A DNA stretch of 64,000 nucleotides from Kaistia adipata DSM 17808. GTDB taxonomy: Bacteria > Pseudomonadota > Alphaproteobacteria > Rhizobiales > Kaistiaceae. Where the stretch lies: NCBI RefSeq assembly GCF_000423225.1, contig NZ_AUHO01000007.1, forward strand, positions 124,001-188,000. The letters run 5' to 3'. Below, piece by piece: positions 10,938 to 30,610 of the stretch (position 1 is its first letter; every line of letters begins with the position of its first letter). The position numbers and the translations under genes were made by a program. The notes beneath the pieces were generated by a model. The model was not told the origin of the DNA. It searched no databases and saw only the letters and a program-made list of their open reading frames with translations.

Positions 10938-13900
10938 CTATTCCGCCGCGATGCGCATCTCGGAGGGGAGCGCCGCCGCGGGCGGGCCTTGCCGCTTGTC
11001 GTCGGGATGGTCCTCGTCGACCTCGTTGGGGGCGAAGAGGCGGTGGAACAGGCGGCCGACCAGGTGCGAGAGGTCGTCCATGATCGTGTAGACCGACGGG
11101 ATGAAGACGAGCGACAGCAGCGTCGACAGGAACAGCCCGCCCATCACCGCGATCGCCATCGGCGCGCGGAACTCGCCGCCCTCGCCGAAGGCCAGCGCCG
11201 CCGGCAGCATGCCGGCGCCCATGGCGATGGTCGTCATGACGATCGGCCGCGCCCGCTTGCGGCCGGCGTCGATGATCGCCTCCTTGCGGTCCATGCCGTG
11301 CTTGACCTGCTCGACGGCGAAATCGACCAGCATGATCGAGTTCTTGGTGACGATGCCCATCAGCATCAGTAAGCCGATGATGACCGGCATCGAGAACGCG
11401 TTGTTGGTCAAAAGCAGCGCCGCCACCACGCCGCCAATCGAGAGCGGCAGCGAGGCGAGGATGGTCAGCGGCTGGAACACGCTGTTGAACAGCACGATCA
11501 GCACGACGAAGACGAGCAGGATGCCGGAGCCCATGGCGACGCCGAAGGCGGAGAACACCTCGGCCTGGGCCTCGGCATCGCCCGTCTCCTGCAGGCGCAC
11601 GCCGGCGGGGAAGTTCTTGACGACATCCATCGTCTTGATCCGCTCGGTGCCCTGGCCCGACGTGTAGCCATGCGCCATGTCGGTGCCGACTTTGACCAGG
11701 CGCTCCCGGTCGTAGCGCTCGATCGTCGCCGGCCCCTGGCCGAAGCCGACATCGGCGACGGTCGAAAGCGGCACGGATCCGCCGGCCGCCAGCGGCACGC
11801 GCAGCGCCGACAGGATGGAGAGGTCCGAGCGGGCGATCCGGTCGAGCTCGACGCGGATCGGCACCTGGCGGCCGTCGACCGTGAACTTGGCGAGATTGGC
11901 GTCGGCGTCGCCCGTCGTGGCGACCCGGATGGTCTCCGAGATGCGGTCCGGCGCGATGCCGAGCGCCGAGGCTTCGTCGAGCTTCGGCACGATCCGGATC
12001 TCGGGTCGCGCGAAGGAGGAGAGGGCGACCGGATTCAGGAACATCGGGTCGGCCTTCATCGCCGCTTCGAGGTCGCCTGACGCCTTGGCCACGGCGTCGC
12101 CGTCGGGGCCGGTGACGGCGATCGTGGTGGCGCGGTCGCCGCGCTCGTTGACGACGTAGAAGCGAATGTCGGGAATGCCGGCAAGCGCTTCGGCGACGAG
12201 TGGCTTCATGTCCGTCTGGCTGACCGTGCGGTCGGCCTTCGGCACAAGCTCGAGGATGACGGCGGCGCGCCGCGTCTCCAGCGTGCCGGTCGGCGAGGTG
12301 CCGCCCATGACGAAGACGCTGCGGACCTGCGGCAGCGTCCGGAGCGCCGCCGTAATCTTGTCGGTGGTCGCGCCGGTCTGGTCGAGGCCCGTTCCGGGCG
12401 GCAGTTCGACCGAGATGGCGAGACGACTCTCGTCGCCCTCGGGGATGAATTCCGACGGCAGGAAGCCCATGGCCCAGATCGAGATGGCGAAGGTGGCGAT
12501 GCCGGCGGCGAGCGTCACCCAGCGCATGCCACGGGCGAGCGTGCCCTTGAGCAACCCGGTATAGAGCCGCATGATCAGGCCGTCGTGCTCCTCCGCCGGG
12601 TGCGGCTGGCCGAGCCAGGCGCGCACGAGCGCGAAGCCGACCGCGACCGCCAGCGCGCCGAGCGCGATCTTGGTCCAGCCGATCGCCGCGACCCGTTCCG
12701 ACAGCGTGCCGAGCAGCGGCACGCCGACGAGCGCCTCGGCCGTGATCTGCAGCACGAGCGCGCCGAGGCCGATCACCACCGCGAGCGGGATCAGCGCGCG
12801 GATGCGGCGGCCGAGATCGTTCAGGAAGCCGGCATAGACGGGCTGGCCGTCCGTGCCGTCGCCGAGATAGGGCGCGCGCATGAAATAGGCGGCCATCATC
12901 GGCGTGATCAGGCGCGCGACGAGCAGCGAGAAGAACACAGCGATCGCCACCGTCAGGCCGAACTGCTTGAAATACTGGCCGGCGATGCCGCCCATGAACG
13001 AGACAGGCGCGAAGATCGCCATGATCGTCGTCGAGATGGCGATGACGGCGAGGCCGATCTCGTCGGCCGCCTCCAGCGCCGCGCGGTAGGGCTTCTTGCC
13101 CATCCGGGTATGGCGGACGATGTTCTCGATCTCGACGATGGCGTCGTCGACGAGGATGCCCGTCACCAGCGTGATGCCGAGCAGGCTGACGAGGTTGAGC
13201 GAGAAGCCCAGCATCGACAGCGCCCAGAAGGTCGGGATCGCCGAGAGCGGCAGCGCGACCGCCGCGACCAGCGTCGCGCGCCAGTCGCGCAGGAACAGCA
13301 GCACCACGAGGATGGCGAGGATCGCGCCCTCGTAGAGCGTGTCCATCGCGCTCTCGTAGTTGCCGTAGGTGTAGTGGACGGTGTTGTCGATGATCGAGAA
13401 GGAGACGTCCGGGTTGGCGGCGTCGATCTCGGCGATCTTGGCGTTGACGACGTCGGCGACGGAGGCGTCGCTGGCGCCCTTGGCGCGGTAGACGGCGAGC
13501 GCCACGACGGGCTTGCCGTCGAGGCGGGCGAAGGATCTCGGCTCCTCCCAGTGATCCTCGATGGTGCCGAGATTGCCGAGCCGGACCTCGCGGCCGCCGG
13601 AGATCGCGATCCGCGCATTGGCGAGGTCGTCGATCGACTTGGCGCCGGCGAGCGTGCGGATGGTCTGTTCCTGGTTACCGACCTCGCTCTTGCCGCCGGC
13701 GAGATCGACATTGGTGATCTGGAGCTGGCGGTTGACGTCGGCCGCCGTGACGCCGAGCGCCATCAGCCGGTCGGGATCGAGGCGGATCTGGATTTCGCGC
13801 GTGACGCCGCCCATGCGCTCGACCCGGCCGACGCCCTTCAGCGCCTGCAGGTCGCGGATGACCTGGTCGTCGATGAACCAGGAGAGCTGCTCCGGCGAGA

Positions 13901-14348
13901 GCGTCGGCGCCAGCGCGCCATAGGTCATGATCGACTGCGCCTCGACGTCGATGCGCTGGATGATCGGCTCGTCGACGGTGCGCGGCAGGTCGCCCCGGAC
14001 CTTGGCGATGGCGTCCTTGACGTCGTTGAGCGCGCGGTCGGTGTTGACCTCGAGGCGGAATTCGATCGCGGTCGAGGACTGGCCGTCCGTGATCGTCGAG
14101 CTGACATGCTTGACGCCGGTGATCGAGGCGACGGCGTCCTCGACCTTCTTGGTGACCTGCGTCTCCAGTTCGGCCGGCGCCGTGCCGGCGTCGGTGACGG
14201 TGACCGAGATCAGCGGCACGTCGATGTTCGGGAACCGCGTGATCGGCAGGTTCATGAACGAGACGATGCCGAAAGCGCACAGCACGACGAACAGCAGGAT
14301 GGGCGGAACCGGGTTGCGGATCGCCCAGGCGGAGAAGTTCCAGCTCAT
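10938..14348 (-). CDS. RND-family efflux transporter, inner-membrane permease
   Basis: A 1136-residue proton-driven pump subunit of the HAE1/AcrB type. It exports hydrophobic compounds across the envelope with the adaptor encoded just upstream. Proton-relay residues are intact: LVDDAIVEIENI in TM4 (Asp-Asp near 400) and GIVTKNSIMLVDFA in TM10 (Lys). It is about 100 residues longer than AcrB. The extra length is mainly in the TM6-TM7 linker (about 490-607), which carries two additional hydrophobic segments. Its start overlaps the adaptor stop by 4 bases. No outer-membrane channel gene is in the window. Confidence 0.93.
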   Translation of the reverse strand: MSWNFSAWAIRNPVPPILLFVVLCAFGIVSFMNLPITRFPNIDVPLISVTVTDAGTAPAELETQVTKKVEDAVASITGVKHVSSTITDGQSSTAIEFRLEVNTDRALNDVKDAIAKVRGDLPRTVDEPIIQRIDVEAQSIMTYGALAPTLSPEQLSWFIDDQVIRDLQALKGVGRVERMGGVTREIQIRLDPDRLMALGVTAADVNRQLQITNVDLAGGKSEVGNQEQTIRTLAGAKSIDDLANARIAISGGREVRLGNLGTIEDHWEEPRSFARLDGKPVVALAVYRAKGASDASVADVVNAKIAEIDAANPDVSFSIIDNTVHYTYGNYESAMDTLYEGAILAILVVLLFLRDWRATLVAAVALPLSAIPTFWALSMLGFSLNLVSLLGITLVTGILVDDAIVEIENIVRHTRMGKKPYRAALEAADEIGLAVIAISTTIMAIFAPVSFMGGIAGQYFKQFGLTVAIAVFFSLLVARLITPMMAAYFMRAPYLGDGTDGQPVYAGFLNDLGRRIRALIPLAVVIGLGALVLQITAEALVGVPLLGTLSERVAAIGWTKIALGALAVAVGFALVRAWLGQPHPAEEHDGLIMRLYTGLLKGTLARGMRWVTLAAGIATFAISIWAMGFLPSEFIPEGDESRLAISVELPPGTGLDQTGATTDKITAALRTLPQVRSVFVMGGTSPTGTLETRRAAVILELVPKADRTVSQTDMKPLVAEALAGIPDIRFYVVNERGDRATTIAVTGPDGDAVAKASGDLEAAMKADPMFLNPVALSSFARPEIRIVPKLDEASALGIAPDRISETIRVATTGDADANLAKFTVDGRQVPIRVELDRIARSDLSILSALRVPLAAGGSVPLSTVADVGFGQGPATIERYDRERLVKVGTDMAHGYTSGQGTERIKTMDVVKNFPAGVRLQETGDAEAQAEVFSAFGVAMGSGILLVFVVLIVLFNSVFQPLTILASLPLSIGGVVAALLLTNNAFSMPVIIGLLMLMGIVTKNSIMLVDFAVEQVKHGMDRKEAIIDAGRKRARPIVMTTIAMGAGMLPAALAFGEGGEFRAPMAIAVMGGLFLSTLLSLVFIPSVYTIMDDLSHLVGRLFHRLFAPNEVDEDHPDDKRQGPPAAALPSEMRIAAE

Positions 14349-15631
14349 CCCTTCGCTCCCTCGCTCTCGGCGCCGCGACCGGATCCGCTCTTTGCCTCGT
14401 CCTTGGCCTGGTCCTTGCCGTGATCCTTGGCTTCGGTTTGGGGCTCGACGGCGGTGACGGCGTCGCCGTCGCGCACGAAGGTGCCGGCGCGCAGCACCAC
14501 GGCTTCGCCGGGGGCGATGCCGTCCAGGATCTCGACCAGGCCGCGGCCGGAAATGCCGGTCTGGATCGGGCGGGTCTGGATCCTGCCGTCGACGACCACC
14601 TGGGCCGTCACCTCGTCGCCGCTGGTCACGACGGCGGAGACCGGAATGCTCAGGCTTTCGCGCCGCGCGAGCTCGACCGTGCCGCGCGCGAAGGCGCCGG
14701 CGCTGACCTTGACGCCGGCGGGAAGCGCCACGCGCAGGCGGCCGAGGCGGCTCGCATCGTCGATCTTCGGCGCCACCAGGCGGACCGTGCCCGGAATTCC
14801 CTCGGGAACGCCCTGGACGGTGACCTTGACCGGCTGGCCGACGGCGATCTGCGCCAGCTCCGCCTCCGGCACCTGGGCCTCCAGCTCGATCGCGCCATCG
14901 GCGGCCAGGCGGAACAGCGGCTCGCCGCCGCCCGAGACGATGGCGCCGATGCGGGCTGAGCGCGACAGCACCAGGCCATCGGCTGGCGCCTTGATCTCGG
15001 TCTTGGCGACGCGCAGCAGCATTTCGCGGCGTAGCGCCTCGGTCAGTGCCTTGTCGGCCTCGGCCAGCGCCAGGCCCTGCTCGGCGGCGGCGCGGCGCGC
15101 GGCCGCGGTCTTGGCGGTCGAGTCGCGGACGTCGAGCGCGTCCTGGGCCACGATACCCTTTTGCTTCAGCGACAGGCCGCGATCGAGCGCGGCATTGGCC
15201 TGCGCCTCGATCGCCGAGGCCTCGGCGATCTGGCTCTTCGCCTGGGCGATCGCCGCGTCGTTGCGGGCGAGCGACGAGGCGTTCTGCGCCAGCTGCACGT
15301 CGAGCATGTCGGTCGAGAGCCGGGCGAGGACCTGGTCCTTCCTCACTCGGTCGCCTTCCTCTGCCAGGAGCTCCGTCAGCCGGTAGCCGTCGAGATCGAC
15401 GCCGACGAGCACCTCCTCGCGCGGCACCAGCGAGCCGACGACGATCGCCGACTGGACGATCTCGCGGCTGGCGGCGGGAATGACGGTGATGGCCGGCGGC
15501 TTCGGCGCCGCGGCGGCCGGCGCCGGCTCCTCGGCCACGGCCGAGAACATCGAATCCGGCAGCGCGAGGGCGCCGGCGGCGATGGCGGCGACGAAAGCGG
15601 CCGAGGCCGCGAAACGGGTCATGCGCTTCAT
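14345..15631 (-). CDS. RND efflux periplasmic adaptor (membrane fusion protein)
   Basis: A 428-residue HlyD/AcrA-type adaptor that links the RND permease to an outer-membrane channel. It starts with an export signal (KRMTRFAASAAFVAAIAAGALALP). A barrel-sandwich region (REEVLVGVDLDGYRLTELLAEEGDRVRKDQVLARL), a long alpha-hairpin rich in Ala and Gln (about 110-190), and the second lipoyl half (ADGLVLSRSARIGAIVSGGGEPLFRL) follow. The C-terminal tail is charged (KDHGKDQAKDEAKSGSGRG). It lies in one operon with tetR upstream and the pump downstream. Confidence 0.92.
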   Translation of the reverse strand: MKRMTRFAASAAFVAAIAAGALALPDSMFSAVAEEPAPAAAAPKPPAITVIPAASREIVQSAIVVGSLVPREEVLVGVDLDGYRLTELLAEEGDRVRKDQVLARLSTDMLDVQLAQNASSLARNDAAIAQAKSQIAEASAIEAQANAALDRGLSLKQKGIVAQDALDVRDSTAKTAAARRAAAEQGLALAEADKALTEALRREMLLRVAKTEIKAPADGLVLSRSARIGAIVSGGGEPLFRLAADGAIELEAQVPEAELAQIAVGQPVKVTVQGVPEGIPGTVRLVAPKIDDASRLGRLRVALPAGVKVSAGAFARGTVELARRESLSIPVSAVVTSGDEVTAQVVVDGRIQTRPIQTGISGRGLVEILDGIAPGEAVVLRAGTFVRDGDAVTAVEPQTEAKDHGKDQAKDEAKSGSGRGAESEGAKG

Positions 15632-15704
15632 TGTTGTTTCGGCCGCGGGGGCGGCCGCCTCTGGTCGGTTGGGCCGGGGCGGTCTCTCGCCACCCTCGGG
15701 CCGT

Positions 15705-16340
15705 TCAGGCTTTCATTCCGAGCACGCCGGCGACGAGCCGCCGCAGCAGCGGCTCGACGCGGGCGAGGGTCAGGTCGGGGTCGTTGATCTGGCGCAGCGC
15801 GATGCCGTCGACGGCCGCCTGCAGCATGCTGATCGTCGCGTCGAGATCGGCGATCGGCGGCATCTCTCCCGCCTGGATCGCTGCCTCGAACACCTCGCGC
15901 ATGATGTCGCGCACGCTGTCGTCGATCGCGGCGAAACGCTTGCCGATCTCGGAATTGCGCAGGCTCTCGGCGCTGATCTCGGCCATCAGCTCGCAGGCGC
16001 CGGGATCGCGCATATAGCCGAAATAACCCATGGCGCAGCCGACCAGCCGGTCGAGCAGCGGGCCGGGGCCGCGCATGGCGTGGACGATCTCGGCCGCGCC
16101 GCAGCGCTCTTCCTGCGCGATCGCCTCGATGATGGATTCCTTGGAGGGAAAATAGCGGTAGAGCCCGCCGGGGCTCATCCGCGCTTCGGCGCAGATCTCC
16201 TGCATCGAGGCGCCGCGAAATCCCGATCGCGCGAAGCAGGTGCGCGCGGCGTCTAGGATCTGCTGCCGGCGCGCGTCCTGCGCGCTCTCCCGCGTGGCGG
16301 AATCGGTCGGAACGGGGTGGACGATGCTGGCCATGGGCAC
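15705..16340 (-). CDS. TetR-family regulator of the RND operon
   Basis: A 211-residue TetR/AcrR protein. Residues about 22-70 form the DNA-binding domain (ARRQQILDAARTCFARSGFRGASMQEICAEARMSPGGLYRYFPSKESI), and the rest is a variable ligand-binding helical domain. It is the first gene of the leftward operon, 73 bases before the adaptor, so it is probably a local repressor of the pump relieved by a pump substrate. A second ATG two codons downstream is equally possible. Confidence 0.9.
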   Translation of the reverse strand: MPMASIVHPVPTDSATRESAQDARRQQILDAARTCFARSGFRGASMQEICAEARMSPGGLYRYFPSKESIIEAIAQEERCGAAEIVHAMRGPGPLLDRLVGCAMGYFGYMRDPGACELMAEISAESLRNSEIGKRFAAIDDSVRDIMREVFEAAIQAGEMPPIADLDATISMLQAAVDGIALRQINDPDLTLARVEPLLRRLVAGVLGMKA

Positions 16341-16352
16341 CCGGTTTGCGAT

Positions 16353-16368
16353 GCGAATGAATGTTCGC
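16353..16368. promoter_or_regulatory. Candidate TetR operator before the RND operon
   Basis: GCGAA-TGAATG-TTCGC is a 5-bp inverted repeat 13 bases upstream of the regulator start, where an autoregulated TetR protein would bind. The arms are short, so support is modest. Confidence 0.35.
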
Positions 16369-16632
16369 TCGCAGCAGATGCGGATGGGGTGCCGCTAAGT
16401 CAATCCGGAGATGGGGAGGGCTTCCGGATTTTTCCGCCCGTCGCTGTCGATTTTTCCGGAAGGACGGCCGATTGCGGCAAATGCGCAACAGGCGATGGGG
16501 TCCGCTGTTCCAGAATCCGGGTGGCCGGCTGTGCTTTCGCGATGCATTCCGGGCTCAAATGACCTAGACAGGAGCCCGTTCCGGCCGCCCTGGCCGGCCG
16601 GAGCGGGGGAGTGGGAGCCCGGGGAGGCACGA

Positions 16633-17637
16633 ATGGATACGATCGACCGCGAGCTGGCGGCGTGGCTGGTGCATGCCGGTCTTGTGGAGGAGGGCGCGGC
16701 CATCCGGGCGGAGCCGCTGACCGGGGGCGTCGCCTCCGACATCTGGCGGGTCGAGGCCGGTGGCCGCCGCTTCGCCGTGAAGCGGGCGCTGGCGAAGCTG
16801 AAGGTGGCGCGCGACTGGCGCGCCCCGGTTTCGCGCAACGGCAACGAGGTCGAGTGGCTGCTCGAAGCCGGGCGGATCGTGCCCGACGCCGTGCCGCGCG
16901 TCCTGGCGCATGACGCCGCCGTCGGCGCCTTCGCCATGGATTTCCTGCGCCCGGAGGATCATCCGGTCTGGAAGAACGAGCTCAGGGCGGGCCGCGCCGA
17001 TCCGGCCTTCGCCGCCGCCGTCGGCCGGGCGATTGCCGCCATCCATGGCGCGACCGCGCATTCCGCCACCCTCGCGGCGCGCTTCGATACCGACGCGATC
17101 TTCCATTCGATCCGCCTCGAGCCCTATCTCGAGGCGACGGCCGAGGCGCATCCCGATCTCGCGGACAAGCTGATGGCGCTGTCGCGCGACACGCTCGCGA
17201 CGAAGATCGCGCTGGTGCATGGCGACGTCAGCCCGAAGAACATCCTGGTCGGGCCGAAGGGGCCGGTCTTCCTCGACGCCGAATGCGCCTGGTATGGCGA
17301 TCCGGCCTTCGACCTCGCCTTCTGCCTGAACCACATGCTCCTGAAGTGCCTCTGGGTTCCGGAGGCCCGCGCCGCCTATCTCGCGTCGTTCGACGCGCTC
17401 GCGACGGCCTATCTCGAGGCCGTCGACTGGGAGCCGCGGGAAAAAATCGAGGCCCGTGTCGCGCGCCTGCTGCCGGGCCTGTTCCTGGCCCGCGTCGACG
17501 GCAAGTCGCCGGCCGAATACATCACCACCGACGCCGACCGGGACCGCGTCCGCCGGGTCGCGCGCCCGCTCATCGCCACCCCGCCGACGACGCTCGCCGC
17601 CATTCGCGACGCCTGGGAAGAGGAACTTTCGCAGTGA
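16633..17637 (+). CDS. Aminoglycoside-phosphotransferase-fold small-molecule kinase
   Basis: A 334-residue APH/choline-kinase-fold protein. The catalytic loop HGDVSPKNILV and metal-binding FLDAECAWYGDPAFDLAF are intact, and the N-lobe contains RFAVKRALAKLKV with the likely ATP-binding Lys. It should phosphorylate a hydroxyl of a small metabolite; the substrate is unknown. The start at 16633 follows GGGGAGGCACGA; the frame upstream reads non-conserved sequence. Its stop overlaps the start of the enolase paralogue (GTGA, 4 bases), so the two are translationally coupled and probably act in sequence. An antibiotic-resistance role is unlikely in that context. Confidence 0.85.
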   Translation: MDTIDRELAAWLVHAGLVEEGAAIRAEPLTGGVASDIWRVEAGGRRFAVKRALAKLKVARDWRAPVSRNGNEVEWLLEAGRIVPDAVPRVLAHDAAVGAFAMDFLRPEDHPVWKNELRAGRADPAFAAAVGRAIAAIHGATAHSATLAARFDTDAIFHSIRLEPYLEATAEAHPDLADKLMALSRDTLATKIALVHGDVSPKNILVGPKGPVFLDAECAWYGDPAFDLAFCLNHMLLKCLWVPEARAAYLASFDALATAYLEAVDWEPREKIEARVARLLPGLFLARVDGKSPAEYITTDADRDRVRRVARPLIATPPTTLAAIRDAWEEELSQ

Positions 17638-18923
17638 ACGACACGACAATCACCAAGGTCATCGGACGTCGCATCTGGGATTCGCGCGGCCGGCCCACCG
17701 TCGAGACGGAAATCCAGCTCGCCTCCGGCGCGGTCGGCCGCGCCATCGCGCCGGCCGGCGCCTCGACCGGCACCGGCGAGGCGGTTGACCTGCGCGACGG
17801 CGGCGACCGCTTCGGCGGTCACGACGTCACCCGCGCCGTTGCCTCGGTGCAGGGCGAGATCGCCACGAAGCTGAAGGGCATGGACGCGGCCGACCAGGCC
17901 GGCATCGACGCGGCGCTGATCGCCCTCGACGGCAGCGAGAACAAGGGCCGCCTCGGCGGCAATGCGCTGATCGCGACCTCGATGGCGGTGCTGCACGCGG
18001 CGGCCGCCGGTGCCGGCCAGCCGCTCTGGCGCTATCTCGCCGGCGGCAGCAAGGTCCGCATCCCGGTGCCCGAGATCCAGATCTTCGGCGGCGGCGCGCA
18101 TGCGGCGCGGCGCGTCGACGTGCAGGACTTCATGCTGATGTGCCCGGGCGCCTCTTCCTTCGCCGAGGCGCTCGACTGGACCGCCGAGGTCTATCGCGCC
18201 GCGGGCTTGCGCATGAAGAAGGCCGGCAAGCTGCAGGGCGTCGCCGACGAGGGCGGCTTCTGGCCGGCCTTCAACTCGAATGAAGAGGCGCTGGACGAAC
18301 TGGTCGGCGCCATCGCCGATGCTGGCTTCACGCCGGGCGCGGATGTCGGCATCTCGCTCGACATCGCCGCTTCCGAGTTCGGCCGCAACGGCCGCTACAA
18401 GCTGGCGCTCGACGACAGCGAGCTCGACACCGGTGGCATGATCGACCTGCTCGGCCGCTGGCTCGACGCCTATCCGATCCTGTCGATCGAGGATCCGGTC
18501 GCCGAGGACGACGAGGCCGGTTTCATCGCCTTCACCGAGCGCTATGGCGACCGCTGCCAGGTGATCGGCGACGATTTCCTCGTTACCAACGCGGCGCGCG
18601 TCGCGGATGCGGCGGCGAAGGGAGCGGCGACCGCCGTGCTGGTCAAGCCGAACCAGGCCGGCACCGTCAGCGAGACGAAGGCGGCGCTCGAGGCGGGCAA
18701 GAAGGCCGGCTTCGGCACCATCGTCTCGGCCCGCTCCGGCGAGACCGAGGACGTCACCATCGTGCATCTCGCCGTCGGCTGGGATGCCGGCCAGTTCAAG
18801 GTCGGCTCGTTCTCGCGCTCCGAGCGCATGGCGAAGTGGAACGAGATGCTGCGTGTCGAGGAAGCGCTCGGCGCCGACGCGGTCTATGCCGGTCCCTCGG
18901 CGCTCGGCCTGCGCAAGGCCTGA
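17634..18923 (+). CDS. Divergent enolase paralogue
   Basis: A 429-residue protein homologous to enolase along its length: DSRGRPTVE, GASTG loop, ADEGGFWP, metal-binding LDIAAS, SIEDPV and GDDFLVTN, catalytic-base Lys in VLVKPNQAG, and QFKVGS. Compared by eye with E. coli and yeast enolase, two active-site positions differ: the Glu of QEF is Asp (VQDFML), and the His of SHRSGET is Ala (SARSGET). NGG before the HA motif is changed to GGGAHAARR. It is therefore probably not the housekeeping phosphopyruvate hydratase but an enzyme for a related phosphorylated hydroxy acid. The GTG start at 17634 overlaps the kinase stop. Confidence 0.85.
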   Translation: MNDTTITKVIGRRIWDSRGRPTVETEIQLASGAVGRAIAPAGASTGTGEAVDLRDGGDRFGGHDVTRAVASVQGEIATKLKGMDAADQAGIDAALIALDGSENKGRLGGNALIATSMAVLHAAAAGAGQPLWRYLAGGSKVRIPVPEIQIFGGGAHAARRVDVQDFMLMCPGASSFAEALDWTAEVYRAAGLRMKKAGKLQGVADEGGFWPAFNSNEEALDELVGAIADAGFTPGADVGISLDIAASEFGRNGRYKLALDDSELDTGGMIDLLGRWLDAYPILSIEDPVAEDDEAGFIAFTERYGDRCQVIGDDFLVTNAARVADAAAKGAATAVLVKPNQAGTVSETKAALEAGKKAGFGTIVSARSGETEDVTIVHLAVGWDAGQFKVGSFSRSERMAKWNEMLRVEEALGADAVYAGPSALGLRKA

Positions 18924-18934
18924 GGCCAAAAAGA

Positions 18935-18967
18935 AAGCCTCCGGCCGCGTCGAGTGGCCGGAGGCTT
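18935..18967 (-). terminator. Rho-independent terminator of the SDR gene
   Basis: A 12-bp perfect stem, AAGCCTCCGGCC (18935-18946) with GGCCGGAGGCTT (18956-18967), and a 9-base loop. On the minus strand it is followed by TTTCTTTTTGG, so it ends the leftward SDR transcript. The stem may also stop the rightward enolase transcript. Confidence 0.85.
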
Positions 18968-18983
18968 CTGGATGCTAAGTCGA

Positions 18984-19733
18984 TCAGTAGGTGGCGCGGC
19001 CGCCCGAGAGATCGAACACGGCGCCGGTGGTGAACGAGCATTCCTCGCTGGCGAGCCAGGTCAGGATCGAGGCGGCTTCCTCGACCTTGCCGAAGCGGCC
19101 CATCGGGATCTTCGACAGCATGTAGTCGATATGCGCCTGGCTGACCTGCTTCAGGATCGGCGTGTCGATCGTCGCCGGCGTGATCGCGTTGACCGTGATG
19201 TTGTCCTTGGCGAGTTCCTTGCCGAGCGACTTGGTGAAGCCGATCACGGCCGCCTTCGAGGCGGAATAGGCCGAGGCGGTCGGGTTGCCTTCCTTGCCGG
19301 CGATCGAGGCGACGTTGACGATGCGGCCATAGCCGTTCTTCTGCATCAGCGGCGCGACGAAGCGGTTGCAGTAGAACAGGCCGTGCACGTTGATCTCGAA
19401 GACGCGCTGCCATTCATCGATGGGATAGTTGACGACCATCTCGTTCTTGCCGGCGACGCCGGCCGAGCAGATCAGGATGTCGATCTTGCCGAGATGGCCT
19501 TCCGCGGCCTTGGCGGCGGCCTCGACCTGGTCGGGCTTGGCGATGTCGAGCTGGATGCCGTGCGCCTTCGGGCCGAGCGCGGCCTTGGCGGCTTCGATCC
19601 GCTCGGCGTCCACGTCCCAGAGACAAACCGTTCCGCCCTCGGAAACAATGCGCTCGGCCGTCTTGAAGCCGATGCCCGAGGCACCGCCGGTCACGATCGC
19701 GCCACGACCGGAGAAACGCTTGATATCTGCCAT
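18984..19733 (-). CDS. Short-chain dehydrogenase/reductase (FabG-like)
   Basis: A 249-residue classical SDR. The N-terminal TGGASGIG binds the dinucleotide, ICSAGVAGKNE holds the conserved NAG-like stretch, and the catalytic triad is in ASIAG with YSASK. The acidic residue in CLWDVDAER suggests a preference for NAD over NADP. The ATG at 19733 follows a GAAGAGGGAAGAG ribosome site; longer forms extend into the opposing ribB region. It converges with the kinase/enolase pair and could belong to the same pathway, but that is inference from position only. Confidence 0.88.
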   Translation of the reverse strand: MADIKRFSGRGAIVTGGASGIGFKTAERIVSEGGTVCLWDVDAERIEAAKAALGPKAHGIQLDIAKPDQVEAAAKAAEGHLGKIDILICSAGVAGKNEMVVNYPIDEWQRVFEINVHGLFYCNRFVAPLMQKNGYGRIVNVASIAGKEGNPTASAYSASKAAVIGFTKSLGKELAKDNITVNAITPATIDTPILKQVSQAHIDYMLSKIPMGRFGKVEEAASILTWLASEECSFTTGAVFDLSGGRATY

Positions 19734-19899
19734 TCGTCCACTCTTCCCTCTTCGCGCGGCCCAGCCACGCACCTTCGCGGTGGCGATACTGGTAAGGCCC
19801 ATACGGTCATCAGACAACCCGTCTTGCGCGCTTCCGCAGTGGCGCTCCCGGGTTGTTCGCTTATAAGGACAGGATCTTTCCCGCTTACGGACATGGTTC

Positions 19900-21003
19900 A
19901 TGGCCCTCAACACGATTGAAGAAGCCGTAGCGGCGATCGCCGCGGGTGAACTGGTGGTCGTCGTCGATGACACGGATCGCGAGAACGAGGGCGATCTGAT
20001 CATGGCCGCGTCGAAGGCGACGCCGGACAAGGTCGCCTTCATGATCCGCCATACCAGCGGCATCATCTGCGTGCCGGTGCTGGCCGACCGCGCCGAGGCG
20101 CTGCACCTGCCGCCGATGGTCGCCAACAACCGCGATCCGATGCGCACCGCCTTCACCGTGACGGTCGACTACAAGGTCGGCCTCACCACCGGCATCTCGG
20201 CCGAGGAGCGCGCCAACACCATCCAGGCGCTCGCCAACGACAATTGCACCGCGTCGGATTTCCTCCGCCCCGGCCACATCTTCCCGCTGATCGCCCGCGA
20301 GGGCGGCGTGCTGATCCGTTCCGGCCACACCGAGGCGGCGACCGATCTCGCCCGCCTCGCCGGGCTGGAGCCTGCCGGCGTGCTGGCCGAGGTGGTGAAC
20401 GACGACGGCACGGTGAAACGCCTGCCCGAGCTGATCGAGTTCGCCAGGGAGCACGGGCTGAAGATCGTCTCGATCGAGGACCTGATCGCCTATCGCGCCC
20501 GCACCGAGAGCTTCGTCCGCGTCGTCGACAGCTTCCAGGTTCCGGTCGGCGGCCGCACCGCCACCACCTTCGTCTACGAGACGCCGTTCGATCCGCTGCA
20601 GCATCTCGCCATCGTCTTCGGCGACGTCGCCGAGCAGCCCGACGTGCTGGTGCGCATCCACCGCGCCAACCCGATCTCCGACCTGATCTCGCGCGGGCCG
20701 GATTCGAAGGGCTGGCTGGAGACGACGCTGCGCAAGGTCGGCGCCGCCGATCGCGGCGTCTTCGTGCTGATCCGCGACCCGATGGTGGTGCGGCCCGACG
20801 GCTCGGCCGCCGGCGACGGCGAGGAGCGCCACATGTCGGCGCGGCAGCGCAAGGAGCGCTGGCGCGAGATCGGCGTCGGCGCGCAGATCCTGCGGGATCT
20901 CAAGGTGCGCTCGATCCGCCTCCTGTCGTCGCAGGAGCGGCAATATGTCGGCCTGCAGGGCTTCGGCATCGAGATCACCGGCTGGGAGCCCGCCGCCGGA
21001 TAG
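19900..21003 (+). CDS. ribB: 3,4-dihydroxy-2-butanone-4-phosphate synthase with degenerate GTP cyclohydrolase II-like domain
   Basis: A 367-residue RibBA-type fusion. Residues 1-200 form the RibB domain, which makes the four-carbon riboflavin precursor from ribulose 5-phosphate; [19 protein letters not shown] and [10 protein letters not shown] are intact. The C-terminal domain (about 205-367) resembles GTP cyclohydrolase II but lacks the cysteine zinc site: the stretch [14 protein letters not shown] that should carry it has no Cys. Cyclohydrolase activity is therefore unlikely, and a separate RibA is expected elsewhere. The 166-base leader shows no FMN riboswitch conservation. Divergent from the SDR. 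Confidence 0.92.
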
Positions 21004-26321: not shown

Positions 26322-27281
26322 TCAGGCCAGGGCGCGGCCGGCGTCGGAGCCATGCCGGCGCCGGCGATGCTGCACGATCAGCATGACGAGGATGGCCGTC
26401 GCGATCACGGCGAAGGAGACGGCCGTGGTGACGGTGCCGAGCGCATAGATCACCGGTGTCGTGACGGTGGTGGTGAGGCCGCGCAGCGTCAGCGGCAGCG
26501 TGTTGACGGCGCCCACCGTCTGCGACGAGCGGGCGATCTCGTCGAAGGAGAGCGTGAAGCCGAACAGCGCGACGCCGATCAGCGACGGCGCGATCATCGG
26601 CAGCACGACATGGCGGAAGGTCTGCCAGGACGAGGCGCCGAGATCGCGCGCGGCCTCCTCATAGGCCGGGTTGAAGCGGTTGAAGACGGCGAACATGATC
26701 AGGAGGCCGAAGGGCAGCGTCCAGGTCAGATGCGCGCCGAAGCCGGAGGTGAACAGGCCCATCAGGGTCTGGAAATTGTCCTGGATGGCGATGCCGAGAT
26801 TGCCGAGGAGATTGGTCCAGGCGGTGGCGTTGTCGATATCGACGTAGCTGTCGACGAGGTGGTCGCCGAGGCCGGAGATGCCCTGGTTGAACAGCTGGAA
26901 CTCGAGCGCGATGCCGAGCGAGACGACGATCGACGGCAGGATGAGGCTGGCGATCGCCGTGAAGAACAGCAGGTTCGCCCCCTTGAAGGGGCGGCGGAAG
27001 GCGTAGCCCGCCATCACCGAGATCACCACCGTCGCCAGCGTGACGGCGAGGCCGAGCTTCAGCGAGTTCTTGAGCGCGTCGACGACGTTGGGCACGCCGA
27101 TGCCGGCCCACAGATTGTGGAACCAGTGCAGCGACACCCCGTTCATCGGGAAGGTCATGCCGCCGTTCGGGCCCTGGAACGACAGCACCAGGATGGTGAG
27201 GGTCGGGCCGTAGAGGAACAGCGTGTAGAGGGCGAAGACCGCCGACAGGAGATAGAAGGCGCGGGAGCGTCCCTCGGTCAT
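26322..27281 (-). CDS. ABC importer permease, PotC type
   Basis: A 319-residue inner-membrane permease of the spermidine/putrescine-type family with about six hydrophobic segments. The ATPase-docking EAA loop is EEAARDLGASSWQTFRHVVLPMIAP near residues 210-230. It is the last gene of a leftward ATPase-binding protein-permease-permease operon that begins at 30610. An insertion of about 40 residues (GISGLGDHLVDSYVDIDNATAW region) lies between the early membrane segments. Confidence 0.92.
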   Translation of the reverse strand: MTEGRSRAFYLLSAVFALYTLFLYGPTLTILVLSFQGPNGGMTFPMNGVSLHWFHNLWAGIGVPNVVDALKNSLKLGLAVTLATVVISVMAGYAFRRPFKGANLLFFTAIASLILPSIVVSLGIALEFQLFNQGISGLGDHLVDSYVDIDNATAWTNLLGNLGIAIQDNFQTLMGLFTSGFGAHLTWTLPFGLLIMFAVFNRFNPAYEEAARDLGASSWQTFRHVVLPMIAPSLIGVALFGFTLSFDEIARSSQTVGAVNTLPLTLRGLTTTVTTPVIYALGTVTTAVSFAVIATAILVMLIVQHRRRRHGSDAGRALA

Positions 27282-27282
27282 T

Positions 27283-28164
27283 TCAGAGCTCCTTGCGGAT
27301 GTCGACGAAGCGCAACAGCGTCCAGATGATCATCAGGACGATCACCAGCAGCACGACGGCGTTGGCGGCGGCGATCGGGAATTGCAGCGCGTTGATCTGG
27401 GCCTCGATCACCTTGCCGGCCGAGGCGATCTGCTGGCCGCCCATGATGCCGATCGAGATGAAGTCGCCCATCACCACCGTGATGACGAAGATCGAGCCGA
27501 TGGCGATGCCGGTCTTGGAGAGCGGGATGATGACGTTCCAGAGCGTCTGCCAGCCGCTCGCGCCGGTGTCGTAGGCGGCCTCGACCAGCGATTTGTCGAT
27601 GCGCGACATCGAGTTCAGGATCGGCACGATCATGAACACCGTGTTGAGGTGGACGAGGGCCAGCACGACGGAGAAATCGGAATAGAGCAGCCAGTCGATC
27701 GGCTCGGCGATGATGCCGGCCGACATCAGCGACTGGTTGACCAGGCCGTTGCGGCCGAGCAGCGGGATCCACGAGATCATGCGGATGACGTTCGAGGTCC
27801 AGAACGGGATCGTCGTGATCAGCGCCAGGATCAGCCGCGCATTGTTCGACTTGACCTCGAAGACGAGGAAATAGGCGATGGTGAAGCCGAGGACGAGCGT
27901 GATCAGCCAGACCATCAGGCAGAATTTCAGCGTCGACAGATAGGTTCGGAAGGTGGTGCAGAGCTCGGGCAGCGACGAGAAACACTTGTCGAAGGCGGTG
28001 GCGTAGTTGTCGCCGACGAAGGCTGGCTCGATCGAATAGCCCGTATAGGTCCAGAAGCTGACCGCGACCGTCACCAGGAGCGGCAGGACGAAGAAGATCA
28101 GGAACACGATCGCGAGCGGCGCGGCCTGCCAGTAGGGTGCCCAGCGCGATTTCATTTCCAGCAT
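27283..28164 (-). CDS. ABC importer permease, PotB type
   Basis: A 293-residue permease, partner of the PotC-type protein; the two genes are one base apart. It has about six hydrophobic segments. Its EAA loop is VEAAYDTGASGWQTLWNVIIPLSKTG. A periplasmic loop after TM1 contains two Cys (DKCFSSLPELC). Substrate is discussed under the binding protein. Confidence 0.92.
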   Translation of the reverse strand: MLEMKSRWAPYWQAAPLAIVFLIFFVLPLLVTVAVSFWTYTGYSIEPAFVGDNYATAFDKCFSSLPELCTTFRTYLSTLKFCLMVWLITLVLGFTIAYFLVFEVKSNNARLILALITTIPFWTSNVIRMISWIPLLGRNGLVNQSLMSAGIIAEPIDWLLYSDFSVVLALVHLNTVFMIVPILNSMSRIDKSLVEAAYDTGASGWQTLWNVIIPLSKTGIAIGSIFVITVVMGDFISIGIMGGQQIASAGKVIEAQINALQFPIAAANAVVLLVIVLMIIWTLLRFVDIRKEL

Positions 28165-28292
28165 GTCGGGGCAGGCTCCGTTGTGGGGCGCATGAGGAGG
28201 GGGCTTGGGCCGGACCGGCGAATGCCGGCCCGGCAGCGGCTACCCGCGGAAAGGCGGTCGGCGTCTCCCGCGGGCGAGGCCGTGAAAGCCGC

Positions 28293-29579
28293 TCAGGCGG
28301 CGATGAACTCGTTCCACTTCTGGATCATGTAGGCGTTCTCATCCATGATCGAGTTCCAGCAGGCGACGGCGCCCATGCGGGTGTTGTAGGAGCCGCCGTC
28401 GCGGACCGTGCCGGCCTTTTCGAGCAGGCCGCCATCCGGACCGAGGATGTCCTTCTCGGCCGGCTTGCCTTCCATCCAGAACGCCCACTCATAGGGCTCC
28501 ATGCTCTGCTGCGCGGTATCGAGCACGGCGGCGTAGTAGCCCTGCCGGTTCAGATGCGCGCCAGCCCAGCCGTCGAGGAACCAGTTGATGAACTCGTAGG
28601 CGGCGTCGAGCTTCTTGCCCTTCAGCGTCCGCGGCAGGCCGAAGCCGGAGGCCCAGGCGCGGTAGCCTTCCTTGAGCGGCTGGAAGGTGCAGGGGATGCC
28701 CTTGAGGCGGACGGCGGTGACGGCCGGCGACCACATCGACTGCACGACGGTCTCGCCCGAGGCCATCAGGTTGACGCTCTCGTTGAAGTCGGACCAGAAG
28801 GCGCGGAACTGGCCGGCCTTCTTGGCCTCGATCAGGGTGGCGATCGTCTTGTCGATCTCCTCCTTGGTCATGTTGCCCTTGTCGCCATACTTCACGACGC
28901 CCATCGCCTCGTTGACCATGGCGGCGTCCATGATGCCGATCGAGGGGATGTTGAGGATCGAGGCCTTGCCCTTGAACTCGGGATTGAGCAGCTCCGACCA
29001 GCTTTCGATCGGACGCTTGATCAGGTCGGGGCGGATGCCGAGCGTGTCGGCGTTGTAGGTGGTCGGGATCAGGGTGATCCACTCGGTCTGTTCCTTGGCG
29101 AACTCCTTGCCGCGCTGCTTCTCGAGATACAGGACCTTGTGCGGCGCCGTGCCCTGGTCGCCGATCTTCTTGCCGTCGATCTCGCCCTTGGTGATGGCGG
29201 TCGCCAGCTTGTCGACCAGCTTCACCTTGTTGGCGTCGATCGCCTGGAAATTGCCGGACGGGATCAGGTTGCGCAGCGCGAAATACTCGGTATCGACCAG
29301 GTCGAACGAATCCGGCTGGGTGATGATGCGCTTGGTGACGTCGTCCGTGGTGACGGTGACGTATTCGATGTTGATGCCGGTGACTTCCTTCGCCTTGGCG
29401 GCGATCGCCGGCGACTGGTTGGTCGCGGTCGAGAGATAGCGGAGCGTGATCGGTTCGTCGGCATGCACCGCCGGGAAGCCGGTCACCGCGGTGGTGCCGA
29501 GGAAGCCGGCCGTGATGGCGGAGCCCTTCAGCAGCGTGCGGCGCGAGATGCCGCCCTTGGTGTTGTTCTTGTCGTCCAT
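28293..29579 (-). CDS. ABC importer substrate-binding protein, PotD type, Tat-exported
   Basis: A 428-residue periplasmic binding protein of the polyamine/extracellular solute-binding family 1 fold. The N-terminus ISRRTLLKGSAITAGFLG is a twin-arginine signal, with likely cleavage after AVHA. The mature protein begins with the strand ITLRYLSTATNQSPAIA. It is longer than PotD (about 350 residues). The divergent neighbour is the uracil reductase operon with a RutR site between them, so a pyrimidine or pyrimidine-derived amine is a plausible ligand, but this is inference. The ATG at 29579 follows GGAGACCAAGG. Confidence 0.9.
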   Translation of the reverse strand: MDDKNNTKGGISRRTLLKGSAITAGFLGTTAVTGFPAVHADEPITLRYLSTATNQSPAIAAKAKEVTGINIEYVTVTTDDVTKRIITQPDSFDLVDTEYFALRNLIPSGNFQAIDANKVKLVDKLATAITKGEIDGKKIGDQGTAPHKVLYLEKQRGKEFAKEQTEWITLIPTTYNADTLGIRPDLIKRPIESWSELLNPEFKGKASILNIPSIGIMDAAMVNEAMGVVKYGDKGNMTKEEIDKTIATLIEAKKAGQFRAFWSDFNESVNLMASGETVVQSMWSPAVTAVRLKGIPCTFQPLKEGYRAWASGFGLPRTLKGKKLDAAYEFINWFLDGWAGAHLNRQGYYAAVLDTAQQSMEPYEWAFWMEGKPAEKDILGPDGGLLEKAGTVRDGGSYNTRMGAVACWNSIMDENAYMIQKWNEFIAA

Positions 29580-29620
29580 TCCCTTGGTCTCCTCTGGTTT
29601 TGTCGCAGGAAACCGCGCGC

Positions 29621-30610
29621 TCAGGCGGCGGCGGAAAGTTCGTGGATGTCGGCGGGGTCCCAGTGTACCGTGACGGTGTCGCCGGCTTCGAAGGGGCGCT
29701 GGTAGAAGGCGCGCTCGGGCACGATTGCGGTTAGGTCGAGGCCGGTATCGGTGGCGAGGCTGATGTAGACGACGGTGCCCTGGTACTCGACGTCGCGCAC
29801 CGAGGCGGCAAGGCCGTCGCCGCCCTCGGCCGAGACGCTCATCCGGTCGGCGCGGACGCTGACGGTGCGGCCGTCGATCGGCAGGACGTTGTGGCCGCCG
29901 ATGAAGCGGGCGACGAATTCGGTCGCCGGGGCGTTGAAGATCTCGCGCGGGGTTCCGGCCTGCTCGATCTTGCCGTTGTTCATGATGACGATCAGGTCGG
30001 CGAGCGCCATCGCCTCTTCCTGGCTGTGCGTCACATGGATGAACGAGATGCCGAGCTCGCGCTGGAAGCGTTTCAGCTCGGTGCGGACCTTGATCTTGAG
30101 GAAGGGGTCGAGGGCGGAGAGCGGCTCGTCGAGCAGCAGGATCTGCGGGTCGGTGACGAGGGCGCGGGCGAGCGCGACGCGCTGCTGCTGGCCACCGGAG
30201 AGCTGGCTCGGCAATCGCTCGGCATAGCGCTCCATGTCGACGAGCTTCAGCGCCTCGGTCGCCTTGATCGAGCGGTCGACCTTGCCGACGCCCTTCATCT
30301 TCAGCGAGAAGGCGACGTTGTCGCGCACCGAGAGATGCGGGAACAGCGCGTAGGATTGGAACATCATCGCCGTTCCGCGCTTGGCGGGCGGCAGGGCGTT
30401 GACCACGTCGTGGCCGAGCGCGATGTCGCCGTCCGAGACGCTTTCGTGGCCGGCGATCATCCGGAGCGTCGAGGACTTGCCGCAGCCCGATGGCCCGAGC
30501 AGGCAGCAATAGGTTCCGGCCTTGATCTTGAGGTTGATCGCGTCGACGGCGACCGTGTCGCCGTAGCGTTTGGTGACCGAGGCCAGTTCAAGATCCGCGG
30601 GGCGTGCCAT
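29621..30610 (-). CDS. ABC importer ATP-binding protein, PotA type
   Basis: A 329-residue ATPase. Walker [11 protein letters not shown]-loop FQSYALFPHL, signature LSGGQQQR and Walker B ILLLDEPLSALD are intact, followed by H-loop FIHVTHSQEEA. The C-terminal 90 or so residues form a TOBE regulatory domain. It is the first gene of the leftward importer operon. The ATG at 30610 fits family length (MARPADLELASVTKRYGD); the upstream frame extension is not conserved-looking. Confidence 0.92.
   Translation of the reverse strand: MARPADLELASVTKRYGDTVAVDAINLKIKAGTYCCLLGPSGCGKSSTLRMIAGHESVSDGDIALGHDVVNALPPAKRGTAMMFQSYALFPHLSVRDNVAFSLKMKGVGKVDRSIKATEALKLVDMERYAERLPSQLSGGQQQRVALARALVTDPQILLLDEPLSALDPFLKIKVRTELKRFQRELGISFIHVTHSQEEAMALADLIVIMNNGKIEQAGTPREIFNAPATEFVARFIGGHNVLPIDGRTVSVRADRMSVSAEGGDGLAASVRDVEYQGTVVYISLATDTGLDLTAIVPERAFYQRPFEAGDTVTVHWDPADIHELSAAA

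Follow-up and report, generated by a model that had tools for sequence, protein, structure and literature searches.

In a 64,000-nucleotide stretch of the Kaistia adipata DSM 17808 genome (contig NZ_AUHO01000007.1, positions 124,001 to 188,000; in the following the window), a kinase of the aminoglycoside phosphotransferase (APH) fold overlaps the gene for a second enolase. We find that this kinase-enolase pair is real, widespread and dedicated, and that the enolase paralogue belongs to a separate enolase clade with a clade-specific change in the active site. The features of the pair, in window positions, are:

16633-17637, + strand: APH-fold kinase, 334 residues (Pfam APH, conserved motifs, structure model)
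17634-17637, + strand: GTGA overlap of the kinase stop and the enolase start, seen in the sequence (overlap of exactly four nucleotides in 50 of 105 adjacent pairs)
17634-18923, + strand: enolase paralogue, 429 residues, GTG start (Pfam, TIGR01060, structure model)
18126-18128, + strand: codon of Asp165 at the yeast Glu168 position (Asp in 126/126 paralogues, Glu in 34/34 reference enolases)
18729-18731, + strand: codon of Ala366 at the yeast His373 position (Ala in 123 and Gly in 2 of the 125 paralogues with a letter there, His in 34/34 references)

A conserved kinase-enolase pair

A preliminary description, made from the window alone, had reported an APH-fold kinase that overlaps an enolase homologue via GTGA, and the coordinates agree with this. 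The kinase passes the Pfam APH model (PF01636, 59.3 bits, gathering cut-off 23.2) and shows an HGDVSPKN catalytic loop, an LDAE metal motif and a conserved C-terminal LARVDGKSPxEY. Its structure model, with a predicted local distance difference test (pLDDT) score of 93.8, is closest to the solved fold of methylthioribose kinase (2pyw, template modelling (TM) score 0.83 on the query, 17% identity). Besides APH, the Pfam search at E 0.001 returned only Fructosamin_kin, below its own cut-off, and the kinase matched neither of the glycerate kinase families GckA (PF13660) and GarK (PF02595). S-methyl-5-thioribose kinase (TIGR01767) was ruled out as its identity, as the score was 60.8 bits at a curated cut-off of 275. 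The database name of the kinase is aminoglycoside phosphotransferase family protein; judged by gene context, a role as an aminoglycoside resistance gene seems unlikely. A scan of positions 16300-19990 for sigma-70-like promoter consensus sequences found none (0.2 expected).

The enolase paralogue scores 158 bits with Enolase_N and 294 bits with Enolase_C, and its 472.9 bits with TIGR01060 (phosphopyruvate hydratase) exceed the curated cut-off of 300. With the mandelate racemase/muconate lactonizing group (PF13378) it reaches 27.4 bits, under the gathering cut-off of 29.4. The structure model (pLDDT 91.9) superposes on solved enolases at TM ~0.95 with 41-48% identity. A canonical eno, whose presence elsewhere in the genome the preliminary description had named as a check, lies on another contig (G000:C2:587940-589199; G and L numbers are our handles for genomes and loci) and scores 685.9 bits with the same model, which rules out the paralogue as the only enolase of this genome. 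In database records the paralogue is annotated as eno.

Loci were collected by a kinase scan of one genome per species, in which the best 80 of at least 573 relatives were used, and from plasmid records, of which 32 matched the kinase and 20 were opened. After removal of duplicates (L063 = L044, L065 = L049, L072 = L046, L136 = L055; identical enolase sequences were also dropped) the kinase was present in 125 loci, 115 of which also hold the paralogue. By automatic gene calls, both genes are adjacent on the same strand in 105 of the 115 two-gene loci, in the order kinase-enolase in 101, and 69 of the adjacent pairs overlap. At L138 and L140 the paralogue is present elsewhere in the genome and not adjacent to the kinase. 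Independently of gene order, co-occurrence was surveyed with an enolase signature pattern and a kinase search across 385 Alphaproteobacteria. The signature was found in 34 genomes, the kinase in 39, and both in 33 at an expectation of 3.4, with kinase and paralogue on one contig in 30 of the 33. In the one signature genome without kinase (G088) the matching stretch is ARTGERED, a false positive. The exact pattern overlooked the paralogue of two further kinase genomes, G141 and G408, and G352 has fragments at contig ends. Canonical enolase (580-686 bits) was detected in 32 of the 33 pair genomes, the exception (G315) being 63% complete. The preliminary description had tied its proposal to conservation of the pair; the 33 genomes with both genes and the 105 adjacent pairs in 115 loci bear this out, and they rule out that the pair is a local accident.

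The best 80 of the at least 573 kinase relatives belong mostly to Alpha- and Betaproteobacteria and include a few contigs labelled Gammaproteobacteria, Actinomycetota (among them Streptomyces spongiae) and Acidobacteria (three contigs from metagenome-assembled genomes). The opened plasmid records add Rhodococcus, Rhizobium, Cupriavidus, Paraburkholderia, Haladaptatus and others. Relatives extend to Actinomycetota and Halobacteria; a scan of viral_contigs gave no relative. Of the 14 Kaistia genomes in our genus sample, 11 match the kinase strongly (E < 1e-70), and the pair is therefore accessory. The distance matrices of enolase and kinase correlate (r 0.67, 115 pairs), but common descent by itself could produce this.

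The altered active site of the paralogue

Aligned to the canonical enolase of its own genome, the window paralogue retains the equivalents of S39, H159, E211, D246, E295, D320, K345, R374, S375 and K396, where the yeast residue numbers are those we assume for these sequences. The preliminary description had read most metal ligands, the Lys base and the second Glu as kept, and had noted the motifs VQDFML and SARSGET with Asp for the first catalytic Glu and Ala for a putatively phosphate-contacting His; the alignment and the translated paralogue confirm the kept residues and the two exchanges. To place these changes, paralogues from plasmid records, genome contigs and relatives were aligned with alphaproteobacterial canonical enolases. 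The 34 references comprise 31 alphaproteobacterial and 3 plasmid-borne enolases (two from lactobacilli, one from E. coli), haloarchaeal and actinobacterial canonical enolases not being among them. His159, Asp246, Glu295, Asp320 and Lys345 are invariant among the 126 aligned paralogues, Glu211 is retained in 125 (the exception is a Lys in the divergent Enterobacter locus L037), and Arg374, Ser375, Lys396 and Ser39 are retained in every paralogue with a letter there. Without L037, every paralogue has the equivalents of K345, E211, the metal ligands, R374 and S375 unless the alignment shows a gap there. Gly at the His373 position occurs in L037 and L132 only. We take Glu165, Glu206, Lys338, Arg367 and Ser368 of a published enolase to be E168, E211, K345, R374 and S375. 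The passage concerned describes these residues as surrounding 2-phosphoglycerate (2-PGA) and does not name the His; the catalytic roles of Lys345 and Glu211 are likewise taken from this source (PMC4450660).

Ten alignment columns separate 126 paralogues from the 34 references, with at most a few paralogues keeping the reference residue. For this comparison L037 was left out, L151 moved in and three more references added relative to the alignment used for the residue counts. There L151 had been placed with the canonical set by its best BLAST score; it carries the Asp and the Ala and sits on the paralogue side of the tree split. In the numbering of the Kaistia canonical enolase the columns are M147I/V, N151G/S, N158R and others, E164D, L189A, G203A, A209W, L275W, H365A and T389V/I. 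E164D and G203A hold in 126/126 paralogues each, L275W in 125/126 (1 still Leu) and the Trp of A209W in 115/126 (2 still Ala). Several of these columns flank the H159 loop, E168, E211, H373 and K396. We take the Ala209 column to be yeast A215, and the changed residues presumably lie around the 3-hydroxyl. In the tree, 127 paralogues are split from the 34 references with a support of 0.998.

Other enolase-like genes came up in these searches. On the Enterobacter chuandaensis plasmid NZ_CP097174.1 (L037, 8244-19982), a distant kinase relative adjoins a divergent enolase-like gene annotated as hypothetical, whose product has Asp at 168, Gly at 373 and Lys for Glu211. Its neighbours encode a U32 peptidase, an aminotransferase, an iron-containing redox enzyme, an M14 peptidase, a major facilitator superfamily (MFS) transporter and a nucleotidyltransferase; this cluster looks biosynthetic and may harbour a further enolase-derived activity. 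The Halomontanus rarus plasmid NZ_CP135523.1 (L209, 2998-3672) encodes a 224-residue enolase C-terminal fragment, annotated as hypothetical and located near mandelate-racemase-like genes, which reads ISARSDET where canonical enolase has SHRSGE and is apparently a remnant of an altered enolase. As for canonical enolase, 686 Escherichia plasmid records match it, and most of the E. coli rows listed span no more than residues 288-424 (54.7% identity), as if a truncated second enolase gene were widespread on plasmids.

Neighbouring genes and the convergent dehydrogenase

Partners were counted within four genes of the pair in the 125 loci (L037 and L149 omitted), with PanE assigned by Pfam; the counts come from automatic gene calls and are lower bounds. 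A D-2-hydroxyacid dehydrogenase, annotated as C-terminal binding protein, is near the pair in 49 loci, an FAH-family hydrolase in 16, a phosphoenolpyruvate (PEP) carboxylase in 5 Rhizobium-type loci (L033, L057, L146, L152, L153) and a PanE-type reductase in 2. These five PEP carboxylases keep the motifs TAHPTE, GYSDSNKDGG, FHGRGGSVGRGG and RPASR. No tracked partner family was near the pair in 60 of the 125 loci, some of them cut by contig ends, and the remaining neighbours are varied and not widely shared among loci.

Some gene orders recur. On Roseibium and Paracoccus plasmids a divergent LacI gene is followed by kinase, enolase, FAH hydrolase, short-chain dehydrogenase/reductase (SDR) and ATP-binding cassette (ABC) importer genes, with a tripartite tricarboxylate transporter upstream; the order in G082 (L192) is similar and includes an SDR of the window type. 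The Roseibium FAH protein scores 342 bits with the 2,4-didehydro-3-deoxy-L-rhamnonate hydrolase model (cut-off 500). At L122 the pair is preceded by a xylose-dehydrogenase-like SDR (338 bits, cut-off 400), an AraD1-family protein, another SDR and an IlvD/EDD-family dehydratase, which reaches 872 bits with the L-arabinonate dehydratase model (cut-off 882). A further cluster, found in Rhizobium, Pararhizobium, Cupriavidus, Paraburkholderia, Rhodococcus and Sphingobium (L033, L035, L042, L057, L144, L146, L150, L152, L153), combines an HpaD-like extradiol dioxygenase (298 bits with HpaD in L042, cut-off 321), an alcohol dehydrogenase, a D-2-hydroxyacid dehydrogenase, the kinase, the altered enolase and usually a cupin. 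On halobacterial plasmids kinase, enolase and cupin are followed by an ilvC-like gene and mandelate-racemase-like genes; the ilvC-like reductoisomerase genes (L038 10696-11724, L040 11041-12036) are unusual for sugar-acid catabolism.

Downstream of the pair in the window lies a convergent gene:

18984-19736, - strand: SDR dehydrogenase (FabG-like), a possible, weakly supported partner

It had been put forward in the preliminary description as a third step. What speaks for this is that a window-type SDR is near the pair in 9 of the 125 loci, from about five lineages (five of the nine are Kaistia), to which L048, missed by the gene caller, can be added. In a first set of loci, the window SDR was 54-57% identical to the SDRs near the pair in L036, L122, L192 and L195; leaving aside a 137-residue edge match in L133, the next match had only 35% identity. 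The resulting first impression that the SDR is specific to the pair was dropped, since a genome-wide search revealed a broad family: homologues at E 1e-65 or better occur in 79 of the 385 genomes, some of them closer (62%) than those beside the pair, and only in G000, G082 and G395 is one near the pair. Homologues are enriched in kinase genomes (24/39 as against 55/346 others), which larger genomes may explain. Where at least three genes flank the pair on both sides (94 loci), a D-2-hydroxyacid dehydrogenase or PanE (40 loci) and a window-type SDR (9 loci) never occur together (P ~0.005); we give this no weight because five of the nine SDR loci are Kaistia. The case for the SDR as a pathway partner is weak, and the D-2-hydroxyacid dehydrogenase is the commoner partner.

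Two other blocks of the window were considered. Divergent from the pair, positions 10938-16340 (- strand) hold a large efflux-type transporter and membrane-fusion-type genes, named by eye, and a TetR regulator (Pfam). In L043-L047, too, the TetR gene precedes the pair; the block of the window is probably unrelated to the pair. About 7-12 kb from the pair, four genes at 26322-30610 (- strand) include one ATPase 45% identical to a UgpC homologue, and in L069 members of two protein clusters of this block, c13 and c160, occur a few genes past the pair as well. It is possibly a sugar importer of the same pathway.

Proposed function and known systems

The preliminary description had proposed that the kinase phosphorylates a small hydroxy acid and that the enolase-like enzyme dehydrates the product. 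This outline is partly supported, as it would fit the kept base, the metal ligands and the neighbours; the sequences themselves establish the pair, how it is conserved, which residues differ, its neighbours and the canonical homologues, and the paralogue is an altered member of a known enzyme family, while what we infer concerns the substrate, the position of phosphorylation, the stereochemistry and the product. We tentatively propose, with a probability somewhat short of even, a catabolic module in which glycerate is 2-phosphorylated and then dehydrated to PEP, the natural acid being L-glycerate and the paralogue an L-2-phosphoglycerate dehydratase. Upstream enzymes that differ by organism would supply a small 2,3-dihydroxy acid, most likely glycerate: in some organisms sugar-acid enzymes and an FAH-family diketo-acid hydrolase, in others a 2-oxo-acid reductase acting on something like hydroxypyruvate. 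The APH-fold kinase would phosphorylate the 2-hydroxyl, and the paralogue, with two Mg ions bound like those of enolase, would eliminate the C2 proton together with the 3-hydroxyl. The resulting PEP could enter central metabolism directly or via a co-encoded PEP carboxylase.

Since the Lys base, Glu211, the metal sites and the phosphate-site Arg and Ser are kept, a 2-phospho-3-hydroxy acid is probably still dehydrated, while the ten separating columns would point to a changed substrate. Because a tracked downstream enzyme is often missing and PEP carboxylase occurs in some clusters, the product would most simply be PEP and the acid glycerate; the 60 loci with no tracked partner indicate that a dedicated downstream enzyme seems not to be required. 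Route III of non-phosphorylative sugar chemistry, in the part of the source that describes it, releases pyruvate plus lactate or glycolate (PMC6336799). By analogy, hydrolysis of a hexonate in this way would release glycerate, which the FAH hydrolase near the pair would fit. The L-form is favoured because a GckA-type D-glycerate 2-kinase (29 of 33 pair genomes versus 194 of 385 overall; larger genomes may favour both) and canonical enolase (32 of 33) already give a likely D-glycerate route, and because the clade as a whole has altered residues around its active site. The genome of the window itself has a GckA-type kinase (PF13660), and its search for GarK (PF02595) gave no match. It is possible, though rather unlikely, that the paralogue is an enantio-complementary enolase in the full sense, forming PEP from L-2-phosphoglycerate made by a dedicated L-glycerate 2-kinase; this would constitute an L-sugars-to-PEP route in bacteria and haloarchaea, and the Lys345 face and the Glu211/Asp168 face may have exchanged their acid and base roles. 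In the open-access library searched we found no paper on an L-glycerate kinase or on the altered enolase group. The passages we draw on report that a cytidylyltransferase accepts L-2-phosphoglycerate in vitro (PMC12275187, PMC13228409) and that L-glycerate is a racemase substrate (PMC11623692).

Several observations weigh against the L-glycerate module. D-2-hydroxyacid dehydrogenases and PanE-type reductases, the latter possibly standing in for the former, usually give D-acids and so argue against L-glycerate. The nearly complete genomes G064, G380 and G401 have the kinase without the paralogue and also without GckA; in these three, D-glycerate may be processed by the kinase together with canonical enolase. 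The unchanged K345 and E211 would be just as compatible with an unaltered C2 stereochemistry and a different group at C3. For these reasons our confidence in L-glycerate is held down. In addition, no sugar-acid gene adjoins the pair in the window, and stop codons lie within some matches (kinase in G169 and G348; paralogue in G182, G286, G348 and G426). Finally, at L114 and L137 the pair precedes a D-threonate-kinase-like protein (104 bits, cut-off 450) and PdxA, a combination of C4-acid catabolism.

The L114 and L137 genes, which follow the pair and a D-2-hydroxyacid dehydrogenase, would be explained if the kinase 2-phosphorylated erythronate, threonate or 2,3-dihydroxybutyrate and the paralogue dehydrated the product to a four-carbon phosphoenol acid. 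The exchange of both Glu168 and His373 for smaller residues, with K345 and E211 kept, is what would be expected for the same C2 chemistry on a larger C3 group. However, Trp in the Ala209 column (115/126 paralogues) fills space instead of making it, the four-carbon product needs a further enzyme of which no tracked one is regularly present, and the PEP carboxylase of the 5 loci has the usual motifs; we regard C4 acids as unlikely substrates. Alternatively, the pair could act on D-glycerate by ordinary chemistry, as a second, catabolic set of glycerate 2-kinase and enolase; the serine cycle has an analogous stretch that leads from hydroxypyruvate via D-glycerate, 2-phosphoglycerate and PEP to oxaloacetate. 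This would agree with the D-2-hydroxyacid dehydrogenases (49/125 loci), the PanE-type reductases (2) and ppc (5), and with the three kinase genomes that lack both paralogue and GckA. Yet GckA is present in 29/33 and canonical enolase in 32/33 pair genomes, and the Glu168 and His373 equivalents, fixed in 34/34 references, are changed in 126/126 and 125/125 paralogues, so that this explanation appears quite unlikely. The two changed residues could also mean that the paralogue is no dehydratase any more and either catalyses another reaction of an enolised phospho-acid, such as 2-phosphoglycerate epimerisation or chemistry like that of carboxyphosphonoenolpyruvate synthase, or is regulatory; Glu211 is missing as well from the distant relative encoded among unrelated genes on the Enterobacter plasmid. 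This is improbable, as all paralogues but the Enterobacter one keep the Glu211 equivalent, all keep Lys345 and the metal ligands, and the transporter and sugar-acid neighbours suggest catabolism.

Enolase is regarded as an enzyme with a single substrate, and all 34 references compared keep the equivalents of Glu168 and His373. A widespread second family with both residues replaced and a kinase of its own would show how the enolase active site can be re-tuned, and altered enolase and kinase together would add an entry point into central metabolism. The pair also invites misannotation: the curated phosphopyruvate hydratase model accepts the paralogue, which is named eno, and the kinase carries an aminoglycoside phosphotransferase family name in a context that looks catabolic.

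The paralogue shares with canonical enolase (TIGR01060) the fold and the equivalents of the metal ligands, Lys345, Lys396, His159, Glu211, Arg374 and Ser375, but differs by Glu168 to Asp, His373 to Ala and eight other separating columns, forms its own clade, adjoins a kinase and coexists with canonical eno. The paralogue scores 61.8 bits with PRK08350 (cut-off 624), which we take to be the group of the second enolases of Methanococci and Thermococci. The latter are likewise extra enolases besides the glycolytic one, but their context, in the passage available, is a ribosomal superoperon (arCOG01169/01170; PMC4390880), while a kinase accompanies the paralogue here. In the passage concerned of another study, 'enolase paralog' denotes the wider superfamily (PMC6946804). 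MtnK is the nearest solved fold to the kinase model and has weak sequence similarity to it; the kinase scores far under the MtnK cut-off and accompanies an enolase homologue. The serine cycle uses the GckA glycerate 2-kinase, enolase and PEP carboxylase, and the proposed steps from a 2-oxo acid via glycerate, 2-phosphoglycerate and PEP to oxaloacetate would resemble it; in contrast, the kinase described here is of another fold family, the enolase is an altered paralogue, and GckA is usually present too. With the Route III pathways, which employ a dehydrogenase and an FAH-family hydrolase, several loci share an FAH-family hydrolase and an SDR beside the pair, whereas in the part of that source describing them the products are lactate and glycolate and a following kinase and enolase do not appear (PMC6336799).

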